This document shows positions 2,551-56,744 of a DNA stretch of 64,000 nucleotides, piece after piece (position 1 is the stretch's first letter; each line of letters begins with the position of its first letter). Under the pieces are notes generated by a model that worked only from the letters and a program-made list of their open reading frames with translations, was not told where the DNA came from and ran no database searches. The DNA lies in the NCBI RefSeq assembly GCF_020520425.1, contig NC_079487.1, positions 112,130,141 through 112,194,140 of the forward strand. The letters are read 5' to 3'. Position numbers and translations under genes: made by a program. The stretch comes from Spinacia oleracea. Its lineage: Eukaryota > Streptophyta > Magnoliopsida > Caryophyllales > Amaranthaceae.

Positions 2551-5316
2551 TTATTATTTTCATAATCTAATTTGCATGAACATGGTTAAATATTACAAAT
2601 TTGCAAGAATTAAAAGGGGTGATTAATTTTCGTAATTGTTAATTAATTGCAAATTGCGTTTATTTAATTATACGTACGCAGTTTTTCGGCAGTTTCTTCG
2701 TTACTCATCCAAATCGAGTGATTTTTGTGTCAATTCCGCATGTAAAAGGCATTCTAAAATTTTGACAAAAATAATATTTTTCTGCCGAACCCAGAATTCT
2801 CAAATTCGAAGCCTAACTATGACTTTTCGAAGGTTTTAGTTTTTCGAATGCAAAATTTCGTAAATTTAAGATGTTAAATTAAATATTTGCGATTCTTGTT
2901 GATAAATCTTGAATTTTTGATTGACCTACTGTATATGTTTAACAAGTTTGAATGCCTAGCCTTGTTAATTATGCAATCTAATTTGTAATTATGATTAATT
3001 TGTTGAAAATTAGAATAATTTAGAATTAATTTGATTTTCATAATTAATTATAATTTAATTAGAAACCTATGATTAAAAACCACCATAAAAATTGTAAATT
3101 TATGATAAATTTTAAATTTTTATGACCCAGACTTGAATCCATGATAATCGGAAATCAATTGAATAATAAATTTTCGATTTTTCGCCCTAAAATTATGAAA
3201 TTAATATTATTTATTAATTTGTCATTAATTTTAAATATAAATTTTAAATTTTTATGCGATTCGTTCATATAACTTGCTCGCACAAAGCAATGGACGCTTC
3301 GTGTTACCCTTAAGGGGTGTTGTATAGTGCGGGCATGCGACGACGAGCAAGGGAGCTCGTCGCCCGTGCGGCACCAATGCAATGAGCAAGGCATGGTGCA
3401 CGAGCACAAGGCAGCAGCCCTGCCTTGTGTCGTGGGCCACGAGCTATGAACAAATGGGCATGGGCGAAAGGCAAGCCAAGGCAGTCGCGTGTGGGCAGCA
3501 AGCGAGCTGCGCCACAACGCGCACTGCCTCGCGCAAGAGCGCGCAGCCTCGCGCGCAGCGAGCGCAAGCTCGCGTGCCACGAGCGCTGCGCCCAGCGTTG
3601 CTCGCGCGCACAGCGAGCGATGTCGCGCGCACAGCGAGCAATGGCTCGCGCGCACAGCGAGCTATGGAGCGCGCGCAGCGAGCGCTGGCGAGCGCGCACT
3701 GCGAGCGATGGCTCGCGTGCGATGAGCGATGGCGCGCGCAGCGAGCACCACAGCGTGCGGAGGCTTGCGATGGGAGATGCAGCAGCTATGCGACGAGCGC
3801 ATGGGCTGCGCGCACATGGCCATCAATGGCTGTGTGCGTGCGGCCCATGGGCGTGCAATGCGTAGGGTGTTTGCGTTACGATTAGATCGTTTTGAATGTT
3901 TAATTTGAAAATTTCAGTTCACGTAATTTTAATTAATTTTAAAATTAATAATTTAAATTATTTTCTTGGATTTTAGTTTTGAATATTGTAATTATAATAA
4001 ATTTTATTTATTCTAATTATTTTACTAAAATTAAAATCATGAATTAATTTAAATAACGACTGAAATTAAATTAAACTTTTTGGATTCAATTATAAATTTA
4101 TATGAGCTTTAAATTTTAATTAAATTTGTATGTTTCCGGTTAGACTAGAAATACATTTTTATGTTTAAAATTAGTAAAGCATAGAATTTATTGGTTTAAG
4201 TGGGAGCGCTTTTTAGTCATAAACTCTTGATTAGGTCTACAAATCCTTAAGGTTAAAACAACTTGATTAGAATTAATAAGGACTGAATAATTGGTAGATT
4301 ATTGGTGCCCTTGATTAATTGCTGCAAATGTTTACGTGATGCATAATGTGTTTTACTAACCAGCTATGTGGGCCATTCATGATAATGAATGGGTGAATGG
4401 TATATATTGTATATGTACTGTTTTGCAGGTTATGAAGTGACTAGTATGGCCCAAATAGGATAGAAAATATGGTCTGCGTACCATTAATTTGAATGTAATT
4501 GGTCTAAAGTACCAAAGTTATTTTTCAATTCAAATATGGTCTGCGTACCATCAAATAGTTGTAATTAGTTATAGCTTATCCTATTTGAAGAAAATGGTGC
4601 CTCCCACGGAGATTTTCAAGACGGACTTTGAAGTCAGAGCTTCAAGATGAAGTCGGGCCATACTAGATCACATTTATCTTATGCATGTTTTAAGTTATTT
4701 ATTGCTTTTAAATATGTCTTAAAATGCATGAGATCAAAAGCTTGATTATGTTGCATGATTAAGGATTTTAGTTCACTTAAAATCTAACCAACATAGTAAG
4801 AGCCTTAAGTTCCAAACTTAAAAATTGAGTTAAAAGGTTCCATGCCAAAATATACACTTGCTTGGATATCCTTTACATCAATCTAGTAATAGTTTTCGCT
4901 CAGCGAGGTGTTACTTATTGGTCCTAAAGGGGCAAGGTACACAAACAATTGTGAGTACATGTTAGTTTTGGTGAAACTCAACGATATAAATAAGGAGTCC
5001 TTTTATGTCGTGGCAAAATCGATAGGTTTACCTAATAAGTACTTCGACGTACCTATCAACCAAGAATAGTTTCTAGACTATTAGCAAAAGGCTTTTGCTT
5101 ACCTAAGATGTTCTAGGATTAAGTCGACAAACTGTGCTTAGTTCTTCAATGATTTTAGGATCTTGGATTCATTTCATTCACACCTGCCGGAACACATAAC
5201 TTGAATAAAATGCTTAATAAACATTGAATTATGCATGTATGCTAGAATTTAAGTTTATTAAGAGAAACTGTGAATGGTTATTTATTTGTTTATTCTTTTC
5301 AATTGTAGTTTTTAAT
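2551..5316 (+). other. Long untranslated leader of the copia element
   Basis: About 2.8 kb between primer-binding site and gag, unusually long for copia. It is AT-rich except for the GC-rich block at 3340-3865. No recognisable protein. Just before gag (about 5290-5309) is a pyrimidine-rich stretch ending in TTGTAG that resembles a splice acceptor; whether the leader is spliced is unknown. Confidence 0.7.
3340..3865 (+). repeat. GC-rich degenerate tandem repeat in the copia leader
   Basis: The words GCGCGCAGCGAGC, GCGCGCACAGCGAGC and gcgagcgatggc recur many times with small variations, in an otherwise AT-rich leader. The several open frames across it on both strands are by-products of the GC-rich repeat and show Ala/Arg/Ser-rich low complexity, so I do not call them genes. 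Confidence 0.85.
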
Positions 5317-8300
5317 ATGGCAAACAACAATTCATTCAACATTCGATCAATTCTCGAAAAGGAGAAGTTGAACGGGAAAAAATTCCTTGACTGGCAAAGG
5401 AACTTGCAAATAGTTCTTATGCAGGAAGAAAAGGAGTATGTCCTAGATGAGGCGATGCCCGAAGCTGCAGGCGACGGGGTCACTCAGGCAGCCCTCAATC
5501 GTTGGATTGATGCCAACAAGGATGTGAAATGTCTAATGCTCGCCACCATGAGTGCGGATCTGCAGAAAACGTTCATCAACTCAGATGCTTTCACAATCAT
5601 CAGTGAGTTGAAGAACATGTTCCAAGATCTGGCTAGAGTCAAAAGATTCGAGACTCATAGGCAAATTCTTGAGACCAAGCTTAAGAAAGGCGAGCCCGTA
5701 AGTCCACATGTTCTCAAAATGATTGGACTCATTGAGAATATGAGTCGGCTGGATCAGCAATTTTCTCAGGAAATGGCTATAGACACCATCCTCCATTCTC
5801 TTCATAGCGGGTATGATCAGTTCAAACTGAACTACAGTATGAATAGTCTGGACAAAACGCTCACTGAGCTTCACGGTATGCTGAAGACCGCTGAAAAGAC
5901 GCTCAAAAGTGATAAGCAGGATGTGCTTATGGTGCGTGGGGGCAAGTTCAAGAAATCTGGAAAGAAGAGGAATGCTAAGAAAGGTGGCAACAAGGCCAGC
6001 CCAACTAAGCAAACTGGCGCCAAATCTGTAAAGAGGAAGGTCAGTCAACCCACTTCTGAATCCGAATGCTTCTACTGCAAGAAGAAGGGGCATTGGAAGA
6101 GAGATTGCTTGAAGCTAAAGGAAGATCAGAAGAACGGAACAGTCGTTCCATCTTCAGGTATTTTCGTTATAGACTGTATACTTGCTAATTCAACTTCTTG
6201 GGTATTAGATACAGGTTGTGGCTCACACTTATGTTCCAATCCACAGGGACTAAGAAGAAGTAGAAAGTTAAGCAAGGGTGAAGTCGACCTACGAGTGGGA
6301 AATGGAGCACGGATTGCTGCATTAGCTGTAGGAACTTACTATTTGTCGTTGCCCTCCGGGCTAGTTTTGGAACTGGAAGAATGTTTCCATGTTCCAAGTC
6401 TTACTAAAAACATCATTTCAGTTTCTTGCTTAGATGCTAAGGGATTTTCCTTTTTAATAAAAGACAATAGTTGTTCGTTTTATTTTAAAGAGATGTTTTA
6501 TGGATCTGCTAGATTAGTCAATGGACTTTATTTATTAGATCACGACAAACAAGTATATAACATAAATACCAAAAAGGCCAAAAAGGATGATTCAGATCTC
6601 ACCTATCTGTGGCATTGTCGATTAGGCCATATAAACTTGAAACGCTTAGAAAGACTTCAAAAGGAAGGAATTCTAGAACCATTTGACTTAGAGGATTATG
6701 GTAAATGCGAATCATGTTTACTTGGCAAAATGACAAAGCAACCTTTCTCTAAAGTTGGAGAAAGAGAAAATGAACTATTGGGTTTAATCCATACAGATGT
6801 ATGTGGACCAATGAGTACAAATGCTAGAGGTGGTTTCAGCTACTTTATCACTTTCACTGATGACTTCAGTAGGTATGGTTATGTCTACCTAATGAAGCAT
6901 AAGTCTGAATCCTTTGACAAATTCAAGGAATTTCAGAGTGAAGTAGAGAATCAATTAGGCAAGAAGATTAAGGCACTGCGGTCTGATAGAGGCGGTGAAT
7001 ATCTGAGCTATGAATTTGATGACCATCTGAAAGAATGTGGAATTCTATCAGAATTGACTCCTCCTGGAACACCACAATGGAACGGTGTGTCGGAACGGAG
7101 GAACAGAACCTTGCTAGACATGGTCAGGTCAATGATGGGTCAGGCCGAACTTCCATTAGAATTTTGGGGACATGCACTAAATACAGCTGCACTCACTATA
7201 AATAGAGCTCCGTCTAAAGCTGTCGAAAAGACTCCATACGAATTATGGTTTGGAAAGCCTCCAAATGTGTCTTTTCTTAAGATTTGGGGATGTGAAGTAT
7301 ACGTCAAACGATTAATTTCAGACAAACTTCATCCAAAATCTGACAAATGTATCCTTGTGGGCTATCCAAAGGAAACAAAAGGGTATTACTTCTACAATAC
7401 ATCTGAGAACAAGGTGTTTGTTGCTCGAGATGGTGTCTTTTTGGAGAAAGATCACATTTCCAAAATGACAAGTGGGAGAAAAGTAGACCTCGAAGAAATT
7501 CGAGTCGAACAACAAACTCTAGAGAATGCTCAAGATGACATTCAGGATGAAACTCAGAGATCTTTAGAAGAATCTGGTGAGAATCATGGTCAATCTAGAA
7601 ATGTTACCCCGCGTAGATCGCAAAGATATAGATCTCAACCGGAAAGGTACTTAGGTATTTTGACGAACGAGAGCTATGGCGTTCTATTACTTGAAAGTGA
7701 TGAACCTGCGACTTACAAACAAGCTATGACGAGCCCTAGCTCCAAGCAATGGCAAGAAGCCATGCAATCTGAATTAGGCTCCATGTCTGAAAACCAAGTA
7801 TGGGATTTGGTCGATTTGCCAGATGGCTACCAAGCCATTGGAAGCAAATGGGTTTTCAAACTGAAAAAGGACAAGGATGGGAAACTTGAAGTTTTCAAAG
7901 CTACATTGGTTGCAAAAGGTTACAGGCAAGTCCACGGTGTGGATTACGATGAAACTTTTTCACCAGTTGCAATGCTAAAGTCTATTCGGATAATGTTAGC
8001 AATCGCTGCATATTACGATTACGAAATATGGCAGATGGATGTCAAAACTGCTTTCTTAAACGGCGTTTTAACAGAAACTGTGTTTATGACACAGCCTGAA
8101 GGTTTTGAGGATCCAAAGAATTCTAAAAAGGTATGCAAGCTAAAGAAGTCAATCTACGGATTGAAGCAGGCATCCAGGAGCTGGAATATACGTTTCGATG
8201 AAGCAGTCAGTGACTTTGGTTTCATCAAGAACGCAGACGAATCTTGTGTATACAAGAAGGTCAGTGGGAGCAAAATTGCTTTCCTAGTATTATATGTCGA

Positions 8301-9282
8301 CGACATATTACTTATCGGAAATGACATTCCTATGTTGAACTCTGTCAAGATTTGGCTTGGGAAATGTTTTTCGATGAAGGATCTAGGAGAAGCACAGTAC
8401 ATATTGGGCATCAAGATTTACAGAGAAAGATCTAAAAAGATGATTGGACTTAGTCAAAGCACTTATATCAATAAGGTGCTTGATAGGTTCAAGATGGCGG
8501 ACTCCAAGCAAGGCTACCTACCCATGTCTCATGGAATGACTCTAAGCAAGACTCAGTGCCCAAAAACACTTGATGAGCGTAGACGAATTAATGGGATTCC
8601 ATATGCATCATTGATTGGTTCAATAATGTATGCTATGATATGTACACGCCCGGATGTTGCGTACGTACTCAGTGCTACGAGAAGATACCAGTCAGACCCA
8701 GGAGAGGCGCATTGGACTGCTGCCAAGAACATTCTGAAGTACCTAAAAAGGCACAAAGATGACTTCCTGGTCTATGGTGGAGATGATGAATTAATTGTTA
8801 AAGGCTATACGGACGCAAGTTTCCAAACCGACAAAGATGATTTCAGATCACAGTCTGGGTTTGTCTTCTGCCTCAACGGAGGAGCAGTAAGCTGGAAAAG
8901 TGCTAAGCAAAGCACCATTGCGGATTCTACAACTGAAGCGGAGTACATTGCTGCACATGAAGCAGCAAAGGAAGCTATATGGCTAAGGAAGTTCATAGGT
9001 GAACTTGGTGTAGTCCCCTCCATTAAAGGACCAATAGCCCTGTATTGTGACAATAACGGAGCTATTGCACAGGCAAAAGAGCCTAGACACCACCAGAGAG
9101 TCAAGCATGTACTTCGTAGATTTCACCTTCTACGAAAGTTCGTTGAAAGAAAAGAAGTCGAGATAAGCAAAATTGGAACTGATGACAACATATCAGATCC
9201 ATTAACTAAACCTCTGCCGCAAGCGAAGCACAACTCGCACACTGCAGCTATGGGAATCAAGCATATTGGAGAATGGCTTTGA
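5317..9282 (+). CDS. Ty1/copia gag-pol polyprotein
   Basis: Encodes one polyprotein of 1321 residues from the ATG at 5317 (MANNNSFNIRS). An in-frame ATG at 5224 would add 31 hydrophobic residues; I prefer 5317 because plant copia gag proteins usually begin near this motif. Gag spans about residues 1-270 and ends in a CCHC zinc knuckle (CFYCKKKGHWKRDC, starting at 251). Protease has the DTG triad at about 298. The integrase zinc region (HCRLGH...CESC) comes next, then the catalytic D494, D557 and E593 with the usual 35-residue D-E spacing. Reverse transcriptase carries YVDD at 993. RNase H shows YTDA, EAEY and YCDNN. The product would form virus-like particles, copy the RNA and integrate the DNA in its own host cell lineage. 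A single uninterrupted frame. Confidence 0.95.
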   Translation: MANNNSFNIRSILEKEKLNGKKFLDWQRNLQIVLMQEEKEYVLDEAMPEAAGDGVTQAALNRWIDANKDVKCLMLATMSADLQKTFINSDAFTIISELKNMFQDLARVKRFETHRQILETKLKKGEPVSPHVLKMIGLIENMSRLDQQFSQEMAIDTILHSLHSGYDQFKLNYSMNSLDKTLTELHGMLKTAEKTLKSDKQDVLMVRGGKFKKSGKKRNAKKGGNKASPTKQTGAKSVKRKVSQPTSESECFYCKKKGHWKRDCLKLKEDQKNGTVVPSSGIFVIDCILANSTSWVLDTGCGSHLCSNPQGLRRSRKLSKGEVDLRVGNGARIAALAVGTYYLSLPSGLVLELEECFHVPSLTKNIISVSCLDAKGFSFLIKDNSCSFYFKEMFYGSARLVNGLYLLDHDKQVYNINTKKAKKDDSDLTYLWHCRLGHINLKRLERLQKEGILEPFDLEDYGKCESCLLGKMTKQPFSKVGERENELLGLIHTDVCGPMSTNARGGFSYFITFTDDFSRYGYVYLMKHKSESFDKFKEFQSEVENQLGKKIKALRSDRGGEYLSYEFDDHLKECGILSELTPPGTPQWNGVSERRNRTLLDMVRSMMGQAELPLEFWGHALNTAALTINRAPSKAVEKTPYELWFGKPPNVSFLKIWGCEVYVKRLISDKLHPKSDKCILVGYPKETKGYYFYNTSENKVFVARDGVFLEKDHISKMTSGRKVDLEEIRVEQQTLENAQDDIQDETQRSLEESGENHGQSRNVTPRRSQRYRSQPERYLGILTNESYGVLLLESDEPATYKQAMTSPSSKQWQEAMQSELGSMSENQVWDLVDLPDGYQAIGSKWVFKLKKDKDGKLEVFKATLVAKGYRQVHGVDYDETFSPVAMLKSIRIMLAIAAYYDYEIWQMDVKTAFLNGVLTETVFMTQPEGFEDPKNSKKVCKLKKSIYGLKQASRSWNIRFDEAVSDFGFIKNADESCVYKKVSGSKIAFLVLYVDDILLIGNDIPMLNSVKIWLGKCFSMKDLGEAQYILGIKIYRERSKKMIGLSQSTYINKVLDRFKMADSKQGYLPMSHGMTLSKTQCPKTLDERRRINGIPYASLIGSIMYAMICTRPDVAYVLSATRRYQSDPGEAHWTAAKNILKYLKRHKDDFLVYGGDDELIVKGYTDASFQTDKDDFRSQSGFVFCLNGGAVSWKSAKQSTIADSTTEAEYIAAHEAAKEAIWLRKFIGELGVVPSIKGPIALYCDNNGAIAQAKEPRHHQRVKHVLRRFHLLRKFVERKEVEISKIGTDDNISDPLTKPLPQAKHNSHTAAMGIKHIGEWL

Positions 9283-24711: not shown

Positions 24712-25815
24712 TTAATTCGTGGAATCATCAAAAGCATTGTCCACCGTCACGTTTACCTTCTCATATTTGAAATCCATAGGAGTCATAGGTAATTCAGGCA
24801 CCACATTTGAATGCCTACCGAATAACACCACCCAGACAAACAATGCAACAAACGCCACTAATGTGCCACAACCCGTCGCAAAAATCAACGCACCAAGAAC
24901 AGTCAGAAAACTACTCTTTTTCCTTTGAATTGGCTGTTGTTCACCTAGATGAGCCTCTTCAGGATTCAATGGTTCCGAATGTAATGACCTAGGAATACTC
25001 CTCACTCTAAAACTCCATGAAGACAAACTACTCACTTGCCTTGAATCCACACTGGATGAGCTAATCCCTACCAAAATCTCCTTATCTCCCCACATTTTCG
25101 ACAAATCGATAGGAAAAGAAATCAATGGCTGAATTGGTCTTTCGCTTTCCGATTCACCCAATCTGATCTCCAATCTCTTTGAACTAGCTTCATAATCAAT
25201 CCAAGATTTCAAAGGTACTCCACCATTCAACAGTAAACCAATTGAAGAAACATCAGTATTATCAGAAGATACAAAACTACCCACATCTACACCAACATGA
25301 TTACCATTCAAATCACCTACATTATCATCTTTCCGAGTATCATACTCAACAGCAACAAATTTGCGGTCAATATTATCAGAAACCCCAAAATACCCTCGAT
25401 CAAAAACCTGGGAAAGTTCATCTTCCCCACCCCCAGGGAAAATCACAAATGCAATGCCATCTCCATTACCAGGGGTAATTGTGAATGTAAAATCACTAGA
25501 AAATGAAATAATAGGTTTTGAAGATTTCGAATCAACAAATTTAAAGGGTTTCTTGTAAACGATTTGCCCAGAACTGGTGGGCCCAGATGAAGGGGAAGTA
25601 AGATTGACGAAATTACCTTCATTGGCGATCTGGGCATCCCCTAAAAGGGTAAAATCGGAATTAAAGTTGGGATTTTGATCGCCATTGAAGCCTTGGAGTG
25701 AGAATGATGAAATTGGTTTTGCAATTAGGGTTAGGAAATTGAAGATTAGGAAAGAAGATGAGAAGAAATACCTTTGATTTTGATTTAGGGTTACCATGAT
25801 TTCTTCTTCCCCCAC
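24712..25815 (-). CDS. L-type (legume) lectin membrane protein without kinase domain
   Basis: A single-exon frame of 367 residues. Residues 7-35 form a hydrophobic signal peptide, and 37-271 match the legume lectin fold. Visible landmarks are DGIAF at 119-123 (the Asp is a sugar/metal-site residue in this family), VAVEYDT at 154-160 followed by an Asp/Asn-rich metal loop and NHVGVDV (172-178), and the closing SSWSF near 265-269. Residues 303-332 are a strong transmembrane helix, and 333-367 a short cytoplasmic tail. L-type lectin receptor kinases share this outer part but continue into a kinase of roughly 300 residues; here the frame stops after the tail, so it resembles the kinase-less lectin receptor-like proteins of plants. 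Likely a plasma-membrane protein that senses or binds glycans or cell-wall ligands; partner unknown. ATG at 25797 (MVTLNQ) is an alternative start six codons in. Confidence 0.85.
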   Translation of the reverse strand: MGEEEIMVTLNQNQRYFFSSSFLIFNFLTLIAKPISSFSLQGFNGDQNPNFNSDFTLLGDAQIANEGNFVNLTSPSSGPTSSGQIVYKKPFKFVDSKSSKPIISFSSDFTFTITPGNGDGIAFVIFPGGGEDELSQVFDRGYFGVSDNIDRKFVAVEYDTRKDDNVGDLNGNHVGVDVGSFVSSDNTDVSSIGLLLNGGVPLKSWIDYEASSKRLEIRLGESESERPIQPLISFPIDLSKMWGDKEILVGISSSSVDSRQVSSLSSWSFRVRSIPRSLHSEPLNPEEAHLGEQQPIQRKKSSFLTVLGALIFATGCGTLVAFVALFVWVVLFGRHSNVVPELPMTPMDFKYEKVNVTVDNAFDDSTN

Positions 25816-51241: not shown

Positions 51242-51250
51242 TTTTTCTTA

Positions 51251-51391
51251 CGGATTTTTCACCAAATGCCCCTAAGGTTTACTTTAATGCACCAAATACC
51301 CATAAACTTTCCAAAATGCACCAAACACCCCTGACGTATGCAATAATATCATTAAATGCCCTTTTGTCTGACGGACGTTAACCCTCCGTTA
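51251..51391 (+). repeat. Left terminal inverted repeat of the MULE
   Basis: Begins CGGATTTTTCACCAAATGCC and ends at ctgacggacgttaaccctccgtta. Contains three rough internal units of the word gcaccaaa-acccc. It is about 11 bp longer than the right TIR near the tip. Confidence 0.93.
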
Positions 51392-51959
51392 CCATGTTTT
51401 TACCTTGTTGCCCTTACTTGTCCTTTCTGGCGCCATATCAAAAAAGAAAAAAAAAACAAATTCAAAACCTAACTTCCCAACTTCTTCCTCGACATTTCTC
51501 TCTGTTCTCTTACACCATTAGAGAGCACTTGAGTACCAAACCAAAGAGAGAGAAAGATCGAAATTTGCTGGGATTTGTGTAAAACAACTCGCAATAGTTA
51601 GTCGAAGTAAATCCCCACGAAAAGATCGACAATTTGGTCCAAAAATCTGCAGTTTTCGCGAGTCCTACAAAAGTGGGTGCAAGGAGAGCAAAGGACTGGA
51701 ATTTGTGGCTTCAACTTCATCAAAATTGTGTCAAGGTTAGTTCACTCAATTCGTTTCTTGTTCTTGGTGCTATTTTTTGCGAATTTTGCTTTGATTAGGG
51801 TTAGGGTTTTGCTAAAATCGTGATTTTTCCATGAGATGGGTTAACTTGAATTTTGGGGTGTTAATGGTAAAACATAGTGTCTGGTTGTGCTTTGTTGTTT
51901 TGCCTAATGATTTAGTTCATTAATTTGAATTTTTGTGTTGTGTTTATTGTTTGTATAGG

Positions 51960-54900
51960 ATGGTCGCAATTTGGTTGTTATGTCATTATAATGATCGGAA
52001 TTTTGATGTGAGGGTACAAGATACTGATGAAACGAACTACATGGATTTGGTTGATGACTTGTTTGATGATTCTATTAAGCAAGATGTTCTGATTCCCGAT
52101 TTATTTAGATTGTTTTATGTTAATCCTAGTACGAATAAAAGAGTAGAATTGTTGAATGATGTTGGTTTGATGGGCATGTGGGGTTTATTTAAGCGCACAG
52201 ATACTGTGGAAATATGGATAGAGAAGGCAAATGAGAAGGAAACTTCAATCCAATTTAGGACTGCAGTTAAGAAAAGGAAGGATAGGAAGGAAAGGAAGGC
52301 TGCAGAACTTAGAAGGAAAGCTGAGGAGTTTGAGAGGGAGAGGGAAGAGGAAAGGAGAAGGTTAGAAAGGGAGGCTGAGATTCAAAGGGATTTGGAGGAG
52401 CAATTGGCAAACACAGTGGCAGTTGAGGTGCCTGTGTATGATGTTGAGGATTTAAGCGTAGAGTACGTACGTGTTTACAGCTCACAACATGCTGACTTCT
52501 TTTCCCCGGGAGGTTCCCAACCACCAAATACACAAAAAGAGCCTTCACCACCACCAAGAGAGCCCTCACCACCACCAAATAATCCATCACCACCACCAAG
52601 AAGTCCCTCACCACCACCAAATAATCCATCACCACCACCAAGAAGTCCCTCACCACCACCAAATAATCCATCACCACCACCAAGAAGTCCATCACCACCA
52701 CCAAGAAGTCCCTCACCACCACCAACCTCACCACAAACACAACCACAGCAACAACAACAACAGACAGAACATCAGCAACAACAACAAACAGAACATCAAC
52801 AACAACAACAAACAGAACAACAGCAACACCAACCCACAGAACAGCAGCAACAACATCAAACAGAACACCAGCCAGATCAGACACCCCCTCCTAACAGGGC
52901 TGAGTTAAACAAAGGGAGGGGTTTCAGAATTTCCAGAAGTCATGCTAAGAAGACGGGTGAGTTTGTTCCTAAGAAGAGGGGGGGAAGGCCTGCTGGTTCA
53001 AGGGTGAGGAAACCCACTGCATACAATGTGGAGGAAGAGGAGCAATGGGATGATGAGAGTGATGATGAAAATTTTGAGGAGAGTGAGAGTGATAGTGAAA
53101 CTGGTTTCAACTCCGACGATTTCATTGACGAAGAAATTGAAGAAGATGAAGAACAAGATGTTCTTAAGGAGGTAATTTCTGAGAGAAGTTTTGAGGATCA
53201 TTTAGATGGGAGTAATAAGCTGGATAATTTGTATGCAAATGGGAAAGTTGTGGGAAGCATGCCATGGGGGACTATCAAGTTGCAACCATGGATGATATTC
53301 CAAAGCAAGACACACTTCATGGAGGTCTTTAGAGACTTCTGTATTCAAGAGGGATTTGCTGTGAGTGTTGAAAAGGCTGATACAACCAGATTCACTGCAA
53401 TGTGTCCGGTTGAGTCATGCAATTGGAGGATCCATGCCTGTGTGTTGTTGGATGGGGTCAGTTGGGCCATTAAAACTCTTGTCAGTGAGCACAAGTCTTG
53501 TGGGAGACTTGAGGAGAATCCCATGGTGACATCTCAATGGCTATGCACCAAACTACTTCCTGACATTGAAGCAAATCCAGAAATCCCAATTAAGACACTT
53601 CAAAGAAAGGCATTGGGGATTTATAGGGTACAAGTGAAACAGAGGTTGATGTACAAGGTGAGAAGCCTCGGGAGGCAGCAAATTTATGGAGGTTTTGATG
53701 AGTCATATGCCCTTTTACCATCCTATGCTGAAATGATCAAATCTACCAATCCTGGGAGTTATGCCTTGGTCACTTGGACTGCAGATTCTGGTAACGTGAC
53801 ACCCCGTTTCAAGGCTTGCTTTTTCTCCTTTGCTGCACAAGTTAGGGGTTTCTTAAGAGGTTGTAGGCCTATCATAGGCATTGATGGTGCACATTTGAGT
53901 GGATACTATAAGGGAATTCTCCTCACTGCAGTTGCTATCGATGGGAATAATGAGATTTTTCCATTAGCCTATAGCATTGTGAGTACGGAGAGTATGGACA
54001 CATGGTCCTATTTTTTCAGAAGTTTGAAGGCTTTGTTTGTTCAACATGGGTGCCAGAGGGATGACTGGACTTTTATTAGTGACAGAATGAGGGTAATTAC
54101 TCCTCCCTTTCTTGGTTTTTATTATTTGTAGTATTGTTTATATTTTTTTCAGTTTTCTGGTTCACTTCCCTAGTTATTGAAACTTGGAATTGTGTTATGC
54201 AGGGAGTAGAATCTGCTTTGTATGATGTTTTCCCCAAATCAGTCAGGAGGGTCTGTGCTCAGCATCTGTATACCAACTGCAGACAAGCTGGATACAGTGG
54301 CACAGCCTTCCATGACTTGTTCTGGGTTGCTGCTGATGCATACAATCCATATGTCTTCAACAAAGCCATGGAAAAGATTGGCAAACTCATCCCAGAAGCA
54401 GTGGGATATCTTGACAAAGTGCCTGAACAGTGGTCCAGACACAAGTTTGATGTTGGGGTCACTTGTGATCACAACACCACCAACTTTGTGGAATCCTTCA
54501 ACGCGTGTACCAAACCCTTTAGGGATCTTCCTGTTTTGTCACTTCTTGAAGGTAATCCTTTACATTTTATCCTATTTTTGTGTCATTGGAACTTATTTAT
54601 TTAGGTTTGTATTCAAGTGTCCGAGTCGGGTTTGTGTTCAAGTGTCCGAGTCGGGTATGTGTTCAAGTTTCCGAGTCGGGTATTTATTTTGCATTAAAAT
54701 GTGTGATGCCAATTATTGTATTCTGTTATGTTAGAAATAAGGTCTTGGTGCATGACGAAGATCGGGGCCAGATTTGATAAAGCTGTTGACATTGGACCCG
54801 ATCAATTGACGCCATATGCTACTAAGGAGCTTGAAGAGAGGAGTGCTGACTCGAGGTTCTGTTATGCAACTAATGCTGGGGGGGGTGAATTTGAGGTTTT

Positions 54901-55420
54901 AGATGGTCATGTGAAGTTCCCTATTAGGCTTGCTGCTAGAGTTTGTGGTTGTGGAAAATGGCAAGGGTGTGGTATACCTTGCAAGCATGCTATTAGGGTA
55001 ATATACCATCAAAGACTCAATCCTACAGATTTTGTTTCTCCTTACTTCAAAGGGGCAGCCTATAAGCTCACATACTCAGAGCATATTCACCCCATGCCTG
55101 ACTCAACACAGTGGCCTACATTTGAGCTACCTAGGATTCTTCCCCCACTAATGAGAAGGGCAGCTGGCAGACCAGCCAAGCAGAGAAGAAGAGGTGCTCA
55201 TGAGAAGAAGAGGGGGAAAAGAAACACCACTGTCAAGTGTGGGAAATGCAAGCAAATTGGGCATAACTCAAGAACCTGTAAAGGAGGTTCCACTGCAAAA
55301 CAGAGGAAAGAATCTGCTGCAGCTGCTGCTGGTTCTGCTGGTGCATCAACATCTGGTGCTAGGAAGAGGAAGGCTCCAACATCTAATGCATCGAGCAGCA
55401 AGAAGTCCAAAGCTGCATAA
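51960..55420 (+). CDS. MULE transposase (mudrA-like), three coding exons
   Basis: Cuts and joins the element ends. Coding exons 51960-54092, 54203-54551 and 54735-55420 give 1055 residues. The ATG at 51960 directly follows a 5' UTR intron (51736-51958), and I see no ATG in the leader exon (about 51480-51735). Joins are in phase: DRMR|GVES and LLE|EIRSW. N-terminus PB1-like; then a charged coiled coil (about 95-140); Pro-rich and Gln/His/Thr-rich repeats (about 190-310); an AT-hook-like GGRPAGSR; an acidic stretch; the MuDR zinc DNA-binding region (about 435-510). The DDE catalytic core has D642 (GIDGAH), D708 (ISDR) and E808 (FVESFN). A SWIM finger CxC-x9-CxH lies at 898-912. A CCHC knuckle C996/C999/H1004/C1009 precedes a basic tail. 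No stop or frameshift is visible in the joined exons. Works at the two TIRs; probably nuclear. Confidence 0.93.
52541..52870 (+). repeat. In-frame coding repeats (SPPP and Q-rich) in the transposase
   Basis: A 42-bp unit of caccaccaccaa(ataatc/gaagtc) is repeated about three to four times, followed by CAACAACAACAGACAGAACAT units. All stay in frame, giving a Ser-Pro and then a Gln/Thr/His linker of likely disordered structure. Confidence 0.9.
54606..54680 (+). repeat. 25-bp triple repeat in transposase intron
   Basis: Three consecutive 25-bp units of the form t.tgt.ttcaagt.tccgagtcggg, inside the last intron (54552-54734). Confidence 0.9.
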
Positions 55421-55653
55421 CTAGAAGTAAGCTTAGGATTCAGTTTAGTATTTCTGTTTTAAAGCTTAGGTTTATTTTGAAAAACAACTTAGGTTGTGGC
55501 ACATTTTGGCATTTTTTTGTAAAGCTACCCACAACTTGATGTTCGGTTTATTTTGGAAACAAACTATTTCAGTTACGAGTTCAAAGACTTGCATATTATT
55601 GATAAATGAAATTCATGTGCTCGTGCCATTACAACCATCATTGTTTGTCTTGA

Positions 55654-56031
55654 TTACTTCTTTACTACAAACATTAGACACAAAAACATTACAATTTCTA
55701 TTTTAATTGCTGCAGCTTGGAATTTTTTGAGCTCTTTCACTCTTTTCTTCAGTTTCTTCAGTTCGTCACTTATATTGTCGTTGTCTTCCGATGTTCCCTC
55801 ATACTCTATATTGCTCTGTTGCTGTTGGTGTTGTTGATTTTGGTGTAGAACACTTCCTTTGCACCACATAAAATGGTTACAAGGATCACACTTGTAATAT
55901 AGCCTCTGTGGATTTTTGGATGTCTCGGAGCTTTTTATTGCACATTTTTTGGAACAAATAGGACAACATTTGTTTGGAACAAGTATGTATGAAAACAGAT
56001 TGGATGATGATGTATTGGAACAAGAACTCAT
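55654..56031 (-). CDS. Small zf-GRF protein with C-terminal hydrophobic tail, carried by the MULE
   Basis: 125 residues, convergent with the transposase and separated from it by 233 bp. Residues 22-58 form a GRF-type zinc finger: cysteines at 23, 26, 48 and 51, with SKNPQRLYYKC in place of the usual NPGRRFYxC and then CNHFMWC (canonical CxFFxW). Then a Gln/Asn linker (62-75), an acidic stretch, a coiled coil (88-104) and a short hydrophobic tail (about 105-123) ending in KK, perhaps a tail anchor. GRF fingers bind nucleic acid, often single-stranded DNA, in other proteins. Small proteins with this layout (GRF, coiled coil, tail) are common in plant genomes as uncharacterised genes. Here it lies wholly inside a transposon. 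ATG 56031 is chosen because no upstream ATG exists in any frame back to the TATA box. Role in transposition is an inference; it could also be a captured host gene. Confidence 0.8.
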   Translation of the reverse strand: MSSCSNTSSSNLFSYILVPNKCCPICSKKCAIKSSETSKNPQRLYYKCDPCNHFMWCKGSVLHQNQQHQQQQSNIEYEGTSEDNDNISDELKKLKKRVKELKKFQAAAIKIEIVMFLCLMFVVKK

Positions 56032-56450
56032 GCTGTGTTGTTGTTCTTGCTGCTCTGTTGTTGCTGCTTCTGTTGTTGATGCTTCTGTTGTTGCTGCTTC
56101 TGTTGTTTGTTATTGTTGTTGTTGTGTTGTGTTGTTCTTGCTGCTGGTGTTGTCTATTCTTGTTGTTGATGTGTTGTTCTTGCTGCTGGTGTTGTGCTGT
56201 GTTGAAGTCCTTGTTGCTGCTGCTATTGGTGTTTGTTCTTGTTGCTCTGCTGTCTTGTTATTCTTGCTGTTGCTGCTGCTGCTGTTGTTGTTTGTTCTTG
56301 TTGTTGCTGCTGCTGGTGTTGCAGGGTTCTGCTTGTTGTTGGTGCTCCTGTTGCAGTGTTCTGGTTGTGCAGGTGGGGGTTTGGGGTGGACTGTTTGTGC
56401 AGTTGGGGGGGATTGGGGTTTAGGGCAGTGTGGTGTTGTTGTTGGGTATG
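56032..56450 (-). other. AUG-free CAA/CAG-rich leader of the zf-GRF gene
   Basis: On the minus strand this stretch is a long run of CAACAACAG-like words with no ATG in any frame (no 'cat' on the plus strand). The frame of the gene stays open upstream to a stop at about 56110-56112. The plus-strand open frames here are Val/Leu/Cys-rich shadows. Confidence 0.75.
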
Positions 56451-56460
56451 GTATATATAA
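56451..56460 (-). promoter_or_regulatory. Probable TATA box of the zf-GRF gene
   Basis: TTATATATAC on the minus strand, about 150 bp inside the right TIR and at the head of the AUG-free leader; correctly placed to drive leftward transcription. Confidence 0.5.
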
Positions 56461-56527
56461 GGGAAATTAGTGTATGGGTGACTGCAACGGCTATATTATT
56501 AACGGCTAGTTTTTGGAAAAAAAATTA

Positions 56528-56590
56528 CCAAACCTCAGGGGTATTTGGTGCTTTTTACCAAACCTCAGGGGTATTCGGTGCATTATGTTT
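56528..56590. repeat. Subterminal repeats inside the right TIR
   Basis: Two units of taccaaacctcaggggtatt.ggtgc lie just inside the right TIR and repeat the motif found within the TIRs. They are candidates for extra transposase-binding sites; the left side lacks them. Confidence 0.75.
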
Positions 56591-56606
56591 TAACGAACTA
56601 ACTGCC

Positions 56607-56735
56607 TAACGGAGGGTTAACGTCCGTCAGACAAAAGGGCATTTAATGATATTATTGCATACGTCAGGGGTGTTTGGTGCATTTTGGAAAGTTTAGGGGT
56701 ATTTGGTGCATTAAAGTAAACCTCAGGGGCATCCG
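56607..56735 (-). repeat. Right terminal inverted repeat of the MULE
   Basis: Inverse of the left TIR over about 129 bp with very few mismatches, apart from the missing 11-bp ttttcaccaaa segment at the tip. Confidence 0.93.
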
Positions 56736-56744
56736 TATTTCTTA

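Follow-up and report, generated by a model that had tools for sequence, protein, structure and literature searches.

Is the small zinc-finger gene that faces the transposase gene in a spinach transposable element a working part of that element, or is it cargo? The element in question is a Mutator-like element (MULE) of 5485 bp with termini CGG...CCG, at positions 51251-56735 of a 64,000-nucleotide stretch of Spinacia oleracea DNA (C1:112130141-112194140, the window), and its relatives were sought in the whole genome (894,210,420 bases, 242 contigs). Between its terminal inverted repeats (TIRs) it carries a transposase gene and, convergent with it (frame 56031-55654), a gene for a GRF-type zinc-ribbon protein, here called gene B. 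We consider it probable that the window element belongs to a recently mobile two-gene MULE family in which gene B is a conserved accessory gene, co-diverging with the transposase in deep lineages and proposed to have a MURB-like role. Two-gene MULEs are already known; what is new is that gene B is a different gene, widely conserved in this genome.

Linkage to the transposase carries much of this reading. Counts are of rows, i.e. search matches (a broken copy can yield two), and all linkage counts here and below are among the matches listed. The genome search with the GRF protein listed at least 150 matches and that with the catalytic exon of the transposase 140 rows; for the count over all 140 rows, GRF matches of the L069 subfamily (150 listed) were added to those of the window protein. 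A GRF row lies within 8 kb of 118 of the 140 transposase rows, convergent and downstream in all 118, which is the MuDR-type layout also present in the window; with the pooled GRF list of this clade, chance linkage is ~0.5% per site. Close relatives of the window transposase (at least 88% identity) have a GRF match within the same distance in 37/40 cases, 37/37 convergent and downstream, and rows at 62-67% identity are linked in 81/100. The absence of a match is weak evidence, since C1:118204697 is unlinked in these counts yet has a GRF gene in its fetched DNA (L071). In fact L069, L070 and L071, the representatives of seemingly unlinked subfamilies, all three have a GRF frame once fetched. Whether relatives keep this frame was the check proposed in an earlier note made from the window alone, and most of them do.

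The same kind of GRF partner occurs in at least three MULE lineages of this genome that are far from the window clade. Three GRF places, each from a group of many similarly scoring rows, were sampled by one locus each (L075, L076 and L077). In lineage C (L076), a 142-aa GRF frame with a tail is convergent with a MULE transposase whose tail is 31% identical to that of the window. Within 4 kb, GRF rows accompany 92/103 lineage-C transposase rows at 80% identity or more, 6/19 at 60-79% and 2/28 at 30-59%; each of these pairs is convergent. Lineage D (L075 and L087) combines a GRF frame of 149 aa with a MULE transposase and is linked within 6 kb in 29/31 rows at 84% or more, 2/4 at 64-79%, 63/103 at 40-58% and 0/12 at 30-39%, which gives 94 linked pairs, every one convergent; two lineage-D elements, C6:123736561 and C2:47664549, are in the linked counts of both lineages. 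Lineage E (L089) has a transposase tail with an apparently intron-split GRF gene, the first exon of which scores 23.9 bits with Pfam PF06839, slightly below the cut-off. Here 11 of 30 distant transposase rows, a set that includes five from lineages C or D, are linked within 6 kb (11/11 convergent). The third sampled locus, L077, also has an apparently intron-split GRF gene, and no transposase was found within its 1.7 kb. No linked pair in any lineage had an orientation other than convergent.

Could different MULE lineages have captured GRF genes of a host family on several occasions? Extra MULE open reading frames (ORFs) are, in the available text of a review, commonly taken as captured host sequence (PMC6446971), an assumption on which a recurring GRF gene B bears. 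The GRF gene of lineage E is apparently intron-split whereas those of the other lineages are not, and the GRF proteins of lineages C and D share just 20-30% identity with those of the window clade; both facts would suit separate captures. However, position and orientation are alike in every linked pair, the order zinc ribbon, helix and tail is constant across frames, and GRF divergence correlates with transposase divergence. Across eight lineages, the distances of GRF and of the transposase exon give r 0.89, a value reached by 17 of 10,289 label permutations. The deep divergence that separates lineages C and D from the window clade accounts for part of this correlation, which also includes L072, whose transposase piece starts with ~45 TIR-derived residues, so that its identities are too low. 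Taken with these points, independent captures appear quite improbable.

Gene B also evolves under purifying selection, as pairwise codon models on GRF frames indicate (Table 1). For seven of eight pairs with dS below 1, omega (dN/dS) is 0.065-0.353 with likelihood-ratio test (LRT) values of 4.3-61.0; the pairs share sequences and hence are not independent, and those with dS above ~1.5 were saturated and set aside. As controls, the +1 and +2 sense frames of four GRF pairs gave omega 0.995-1.79, none significant, and the antisense+0 and +2 frames 1.0-4.8. The antisense+1 frame gave 0.242-0.621 (LRT 1.6-15.8); such low values are to be expected of a frame whose third codon positions coincide with those of GRF. 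For comparison, the last transposase exon has omega 0.151 in L071-L074 and 0.190 in L069-L070, and three deep transposase pairs (omega 0.009-0.146) are probably saturated too.

Table 1. Pairwise codon models on gene B (GRF) frames with dS below 1.
Pair	omega	dS	LRT	Remark
L071-L074	0.069	0.91	61.0	
L071-L078	0.065	0.80	57.8	
L011-L083	0.197	0.42	19.0	
L011-L084	0.194	0.46	19.6	
L069-L070	0.353	0.23	6.3	
L074-L078	0.224	0.17	7.9	
L072-L082	0.180	0.06	4.3	
L083-L084	0.715	0.03	0.1	7 differing codons

A functionless passenger would agree with the broken copies that exist, such as those with a stop codon in L037 and C3:143096285, and with a private change in the tail of the window copy. It is disfavoured by the linkage and by the selection: the constraint falls in the GRF gene's own frame across lineages, and a GRF row stands beside most relatives counted. 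We give this reading hardly any credence. The earlier note had named the GRF protein as a candidate accessory factor and proposed dN/dS as a measure; linkage and omega both come out in favour of that candidacy.

What kind of protein does gene B encode? We assign the window protein to the GRF type because its profile matches those of its relatives and because NEIL3 GRF is the top PDB profile hit. The relatives include frames that exceed the PF06839 cut-off, namely those of lineages C and D and L077 exon 1; over 15 aligned frames, PF06839 matches 11 at E up to 0.1 (best 1.8e-07). Aligned with hhalign, the profile of the window clade and that of L075, L076, L003 and L004 match at 94.6% over 39 columns. 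Cysteines C23, C26, C48 and C51 are invariant in 15/15 frames, as are NP and Trp, and the window protein thus combines four Cys ligands with homology to GRF proteins above the cut-off. A PDB search with the 15-frame profile, which includes lineages C and D, placed two NEIL3 GRF entries first (3e-4 and 5.6e-4). An AlphaFold model from 15 sequences has three strands followed by a single helix that spans a charged stretch and the tail, and the long helix was read by eye as a putative coiled coil. The Foldseek ranking of this model is headed by RNA-polymerase zinc-ribbon subunits, with NEIL3 GRF at rank 12 (probability 0.91, E 0.6), an outcome consistent with a zinc ribbon that does not decide the matter. 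The order of zinc ribbon, helix and tail is thus supported by alignment and predicted structure, and the stand-alone GRF proteins examined are 121-149 aa long. The earlier description as a GRF zinc finger with coiled coil and hydrophobic tail stands for the ribbon and the tail; the Pfam cut-off is missed, and the coiled coil is a visual reading.

The frames also share a hydrophobic tail. Those checked are 12: that of the window, nine more drawn from its clade and from lineages C and D, and exon 2 of both L077 and L089. All 12 have their most hydrophobic 19-residue segment 1-3 residues before the C-terminus, with a mean hydropathy of 1.94-2.86. A hydrophobic segment at the extreme C-terminus characterizes tail-anchored proteins, and judging from its sequence the gene B protein may be membrane-anchored in this way. 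This feature bears on the main rival to an accessory DNA-binding role, which is that gene B serves the element outside the chemistry of transposition, either as an anti-silencing or expression factor or by regulating the transposase, which it would tether or sequester at a membrane. In our judgement a membrane-like tail in 12 frames is unexpected for a DNA-processing cofactor, and an anti-silencing role has been reported for vanC of the Arabidopsis element Hiun, as the available account has it. Against this, where the function of a GRF zinc finger is known, it is part of a DNA-processing enzyme and binds single-stranded DNA, according to the available parts of two papers (PMC9266487, PMC8593216). 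We regard a role outside the chemistry as unlikely, though it keeps an appreciable share of our expectation.

The accessory role that we favour can be drawn as a sequence of steps. We infer that gene B is expressed and needed for transposition, and that its protein oligomerises, binds nucleic acid and inserts into a membrane. The gene would be transcribed from its own promoter at the right end, and the protein would oligomerise through its helix. The zinc ribbon would bind DNA in single-stranded or forked form, on either the excised element or the target, and the C-terminal helix would hold the protein at a membrane, either the nuclear envelope or the endoplasmic reticulum (ER). Gene B would then assist integration or end repair, or control the access of the transposase, comparable to MURB of maize MuDR. 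In the available text of the two papers, single-stranded and forked DNA are ligands of the NEIL3 GRF region (PMC9266487), and single-stranded DNA is a ligand of the APE2 Zf-GRF (PMC8593216); therefore the gene B protein likely meets DNA of these kinds during excision, integration or repair. The likeness to NEIL3 and APE2 lies in the zinc ribbon. Their GRF domains lie inside larger DNA-repair enzymes, whereas the gene B protein is stand-alone with a helix and a tail.

How does the spinach family compare with MULEs already described? Maize MuDR, as far as the available accounts go, similarly has two opposite genes between TIRs, a transposase gene (mudrA) and a small second gene (mudrB); the two are transcribed in opposite directions (PMC9168764), and the second is reported to be needed for integration. 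The partner in the window element is instead a GRF-type zinc ribbon with a helix and a hydrophobic tail, and the likeness drawn here is one of layout; the earlier note took mudrB to be specific to its lineage. Type II Abermu elements of barley and others, in the available part of their description, have in 13 plants an ORF called ORFR that is opposite to the transposase and lies between it and the 3' TIR, with Ka/Ks below 1 (PMC9168764). That text describes the origin and function of ORFR as unknown, names no domain, does not mention 'GRF', and reports that no similarity was found between the ORFRs of distant plants (PMC9168764). With Abermu, too, the comparison concerns the convergent layout. 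VANDAL elements such as Hiun (vanA, vanB, vanC), likened here by their available description, are MULEs with accessory genes, one of them anti-silencing. In its available main text, which lacks the term 'GRF', a review of second MULE ORFs covers mudrB, mutB, vanB, vanC and PMD, often antisense (PMC6446971), and in the accessible part of another study GRF-type and MULE domains appear separately in a table of NLR proteins (PMC11734081). Among the search matches listed for the open-licence PMC literature, titles and abstract starts gave no account of a MULE that encodes a GRF protein.

A second, TIR-anchored sample bears on how often the two genes stay together. A genome search with the left TIR gave 869 candidates, and the 40 ends scored belong to 28 elements, of which 18 have both genes, 7 only GRF, none only the transposase and 3 neither. 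The GRF-only excess (7 against 0) was considered as evidence of selection and dropped, the coding part of the transposase being ~8 times longer. Internal-deletion derivatives are common. L017, L018, L033 and L038 have each lost a different part of the transposase, but these four were found through their GRF gene and are in that respect a biased sample. L072:4228-6063 and L073:1022-2853 are 1.83-kb derivatives with long TIRs in which an intact GRF gene stands beside what remains of the transposase, its last exon. GRF matches with identity and length like those of L072 and L073 are numerous among the matches listed, from which L072, L073 and L074 were fetched.

Several observations weigh against an accessory gene B. 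Among the matches listed, 3 of the 40 close transposase relatives have no GRF row, and neither do 19 of the 30 distant transposase rows within 6 kb. L088, a MULE transposase tail from the group of distant rows, is not followed by a GRF frame within ~1.5 kb, has no listed GRF row within 6 kb, and is either a lineage without gene B or one with an unrecognised gene B. The L083-L084 pair gave no significant constraint. In the TIR-anchored sample a small share of the candidates (40/869) was scored, one of the 18 elements counted as having both genes has just a damaged partial GRF row, and the GRF-only excess, being expected from gene size, is no proof of selection. The window protein scores 18 bits with PF06839, whose curated cut-off is 25.9, and is therefore labelled GRF-type rather than a Pfam member. 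The AlphaFold model is of low quality (mean pLDDT 62.9, pTM 0.33), and Foldseek found no fold match for it in the PDB under E 0.1. For Abermu, the available text argues from polymorphic rice elements that lack ORFR that the convergent frame may not matter for transposition (PMC9168764). The evidence on gene B is the DNA sequence of one genome.

Is the window copy itself still active? Of the 28 other family copies in which the right terminus is readable, 27 retain 12 bp that the window copy lacks there; L031 (unreadable) and L018 (cut) are outside this count, and a few of the 27 have point differences. The tail of the window copy's gene B product has a private Gly-to-Glu change, where Gly is present in all 28 other intact frames among L010-L038. 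Because of these two changes the window copy is probably decaying and no longer fully competent. The earlier note had called the element possibly autonomous and its second gene undamaged; the first better suits the family than this copy, and of the second it holds that the frame is open over 125 aa, with the exception of the tail change. The family is young and recently mobile. The 27 other copies have one terminus in common, yet by eye their flanks differ outside it, and many independent insertions must therefore have occurred. A genome search for an empty site with the joined window flanks matched only the window's own two flanks.

Assignment of the element to the MULEs draws on both its ends and its transposase (Table 2). 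The TIR arms at 51266-51391 and 56607-56732, 126 nt each, are 98% complementary, and the flanking 9-bp target-site duplications (TSDs) agree at 8/9 positions, much as had been described before. The TSDs of relatives match at 9/9 positions in L069, L070 and L071, at 9/9 in L072 where all letters are T, and at 8/9 in L073, and termini of the CGG...CCG kind are also present in L069, L070 and L071. The TIRs of the clade (e.g. window 51256-51343 and L071:1936-2011) contain related ~29-bp units with a CACCAAAT(A/G)CCCC-like core, possibly a transposase binding site. The transposase, equally in line with the earlier description as complete with DDE, SWIM and CCHC motifs, is predicted to have 1056 aa in three coding exons with GT-AG introns, the splicing being deduced from frame and sites. 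It exceeds the Pfam cut-offs for DBD_Tnp_Mut (PF03108, 9.8e-08), MULE (PF10551, 8.4e-10) and SWIM (PF04434, 1.8e-07), and thus has the DDE domain, the MuDR DNA-binding domain and the SWIM finger of the group; the CCHC knuckle was seen by eye. In an alignment with L069, L070 and L071 of the same clade and L087 from a distant lineage, the acidic positions of IGIDG, SDR and NFVESFN coincide. In the N-terminal half, a 21-nt tandem repeat (window 52489-52782) encodes a Pro/Ser-rich heptad array that is followed by a Gln-rich stretch. Elsewhere in the window, an open frame of 1353 codons at 5221-9279 (+) has copia-type gag, integrase and reverse transcriptase domains, and a 367-codon frame at 24715-25815 (-) has a legume lectin domain.

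Table 2. Features of the window element (window positions).
Feature	Position	Strand	Description
Left TSD	51242..51250		9 bp, 8/9 matching the right one
Left TIR	51251..51391	+	inner 126 nt 98% complementary to the right arm; three ~29-bp related units
Transposase exon A	51960..54092	+	charged and Pro/Gln-rich N-terminus, DBD_Tnp_Mut, start of MULE DDE (acidic residues 1-2)
Transposase exon B	54203..54551	+	holds the NFVESFN acidic position
Transposase exon C	54735..55420	+	SWIM zinc finger, CCHC knuckle (by eye), stop codon
Gene B (GRF-type zinc ribbon)	55654..56031	-	125 aa; four invariant Cys, predicted helix 82-124, hydrophobic C-terminal tail
Right TIR	56607..56735	-	terminal part without the 12 bp kept in 27/28 other readable family copies
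Right TSD	56736..56744		flanking 9-mer

Do small GRF genes outside recognisable elements descend from transposons? The eight top-scoring PF06839 loci of the genome have no match to the window transposase within ~1.5 kb, though a distant lineage would escape this query; by eye, two of the eight, L005 and L008, resemble DNA-repair genes. GRF frames at L003:1354-1680 (-) and L004:1420-1671 (-) are 46-48% identical to lineage D and likewise have no match to the window transposase within ~1.5 kb; they are candidates for remnants or domesticated copies. The suggestion that small plant genes for a GRF zinc finger with a tail are transposon-derived is accordingly supported for the sampled high-copy GRF frames of this one genome. 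More broadly, and tentatively, the combination of GRF ribbon, coiled coil and membrane anchor could be the ancestral gene B of a large part of plant MULEs, a functional counterpart of mudrB that tethers intermediates or the transposase at the nuclear envelope or ER, and many plant genes annotated as 'GRF zinc finger family protein', including some association-study candidates, could be its copies or domesticated descendants; we see this as possible rather than expected.

The findings suggest that what plant annotations list as a small GRF zinc-finger gene can be a gene of a transposon. GRF zinc-finger genes are named as trait candidates, for example in the available part of a wheat height study (PMC11782118). 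A transposon protein with a tail-anchor-like end, if confirmed, would be unusual, and the nuclear envelope or ER would be a possible site of control. In the spinach genome, no fewer than four transposase lineages have one recognisable protein architecture encoded at this position, and it is under selection; the function of gene B therefore becomes a general, testable question.

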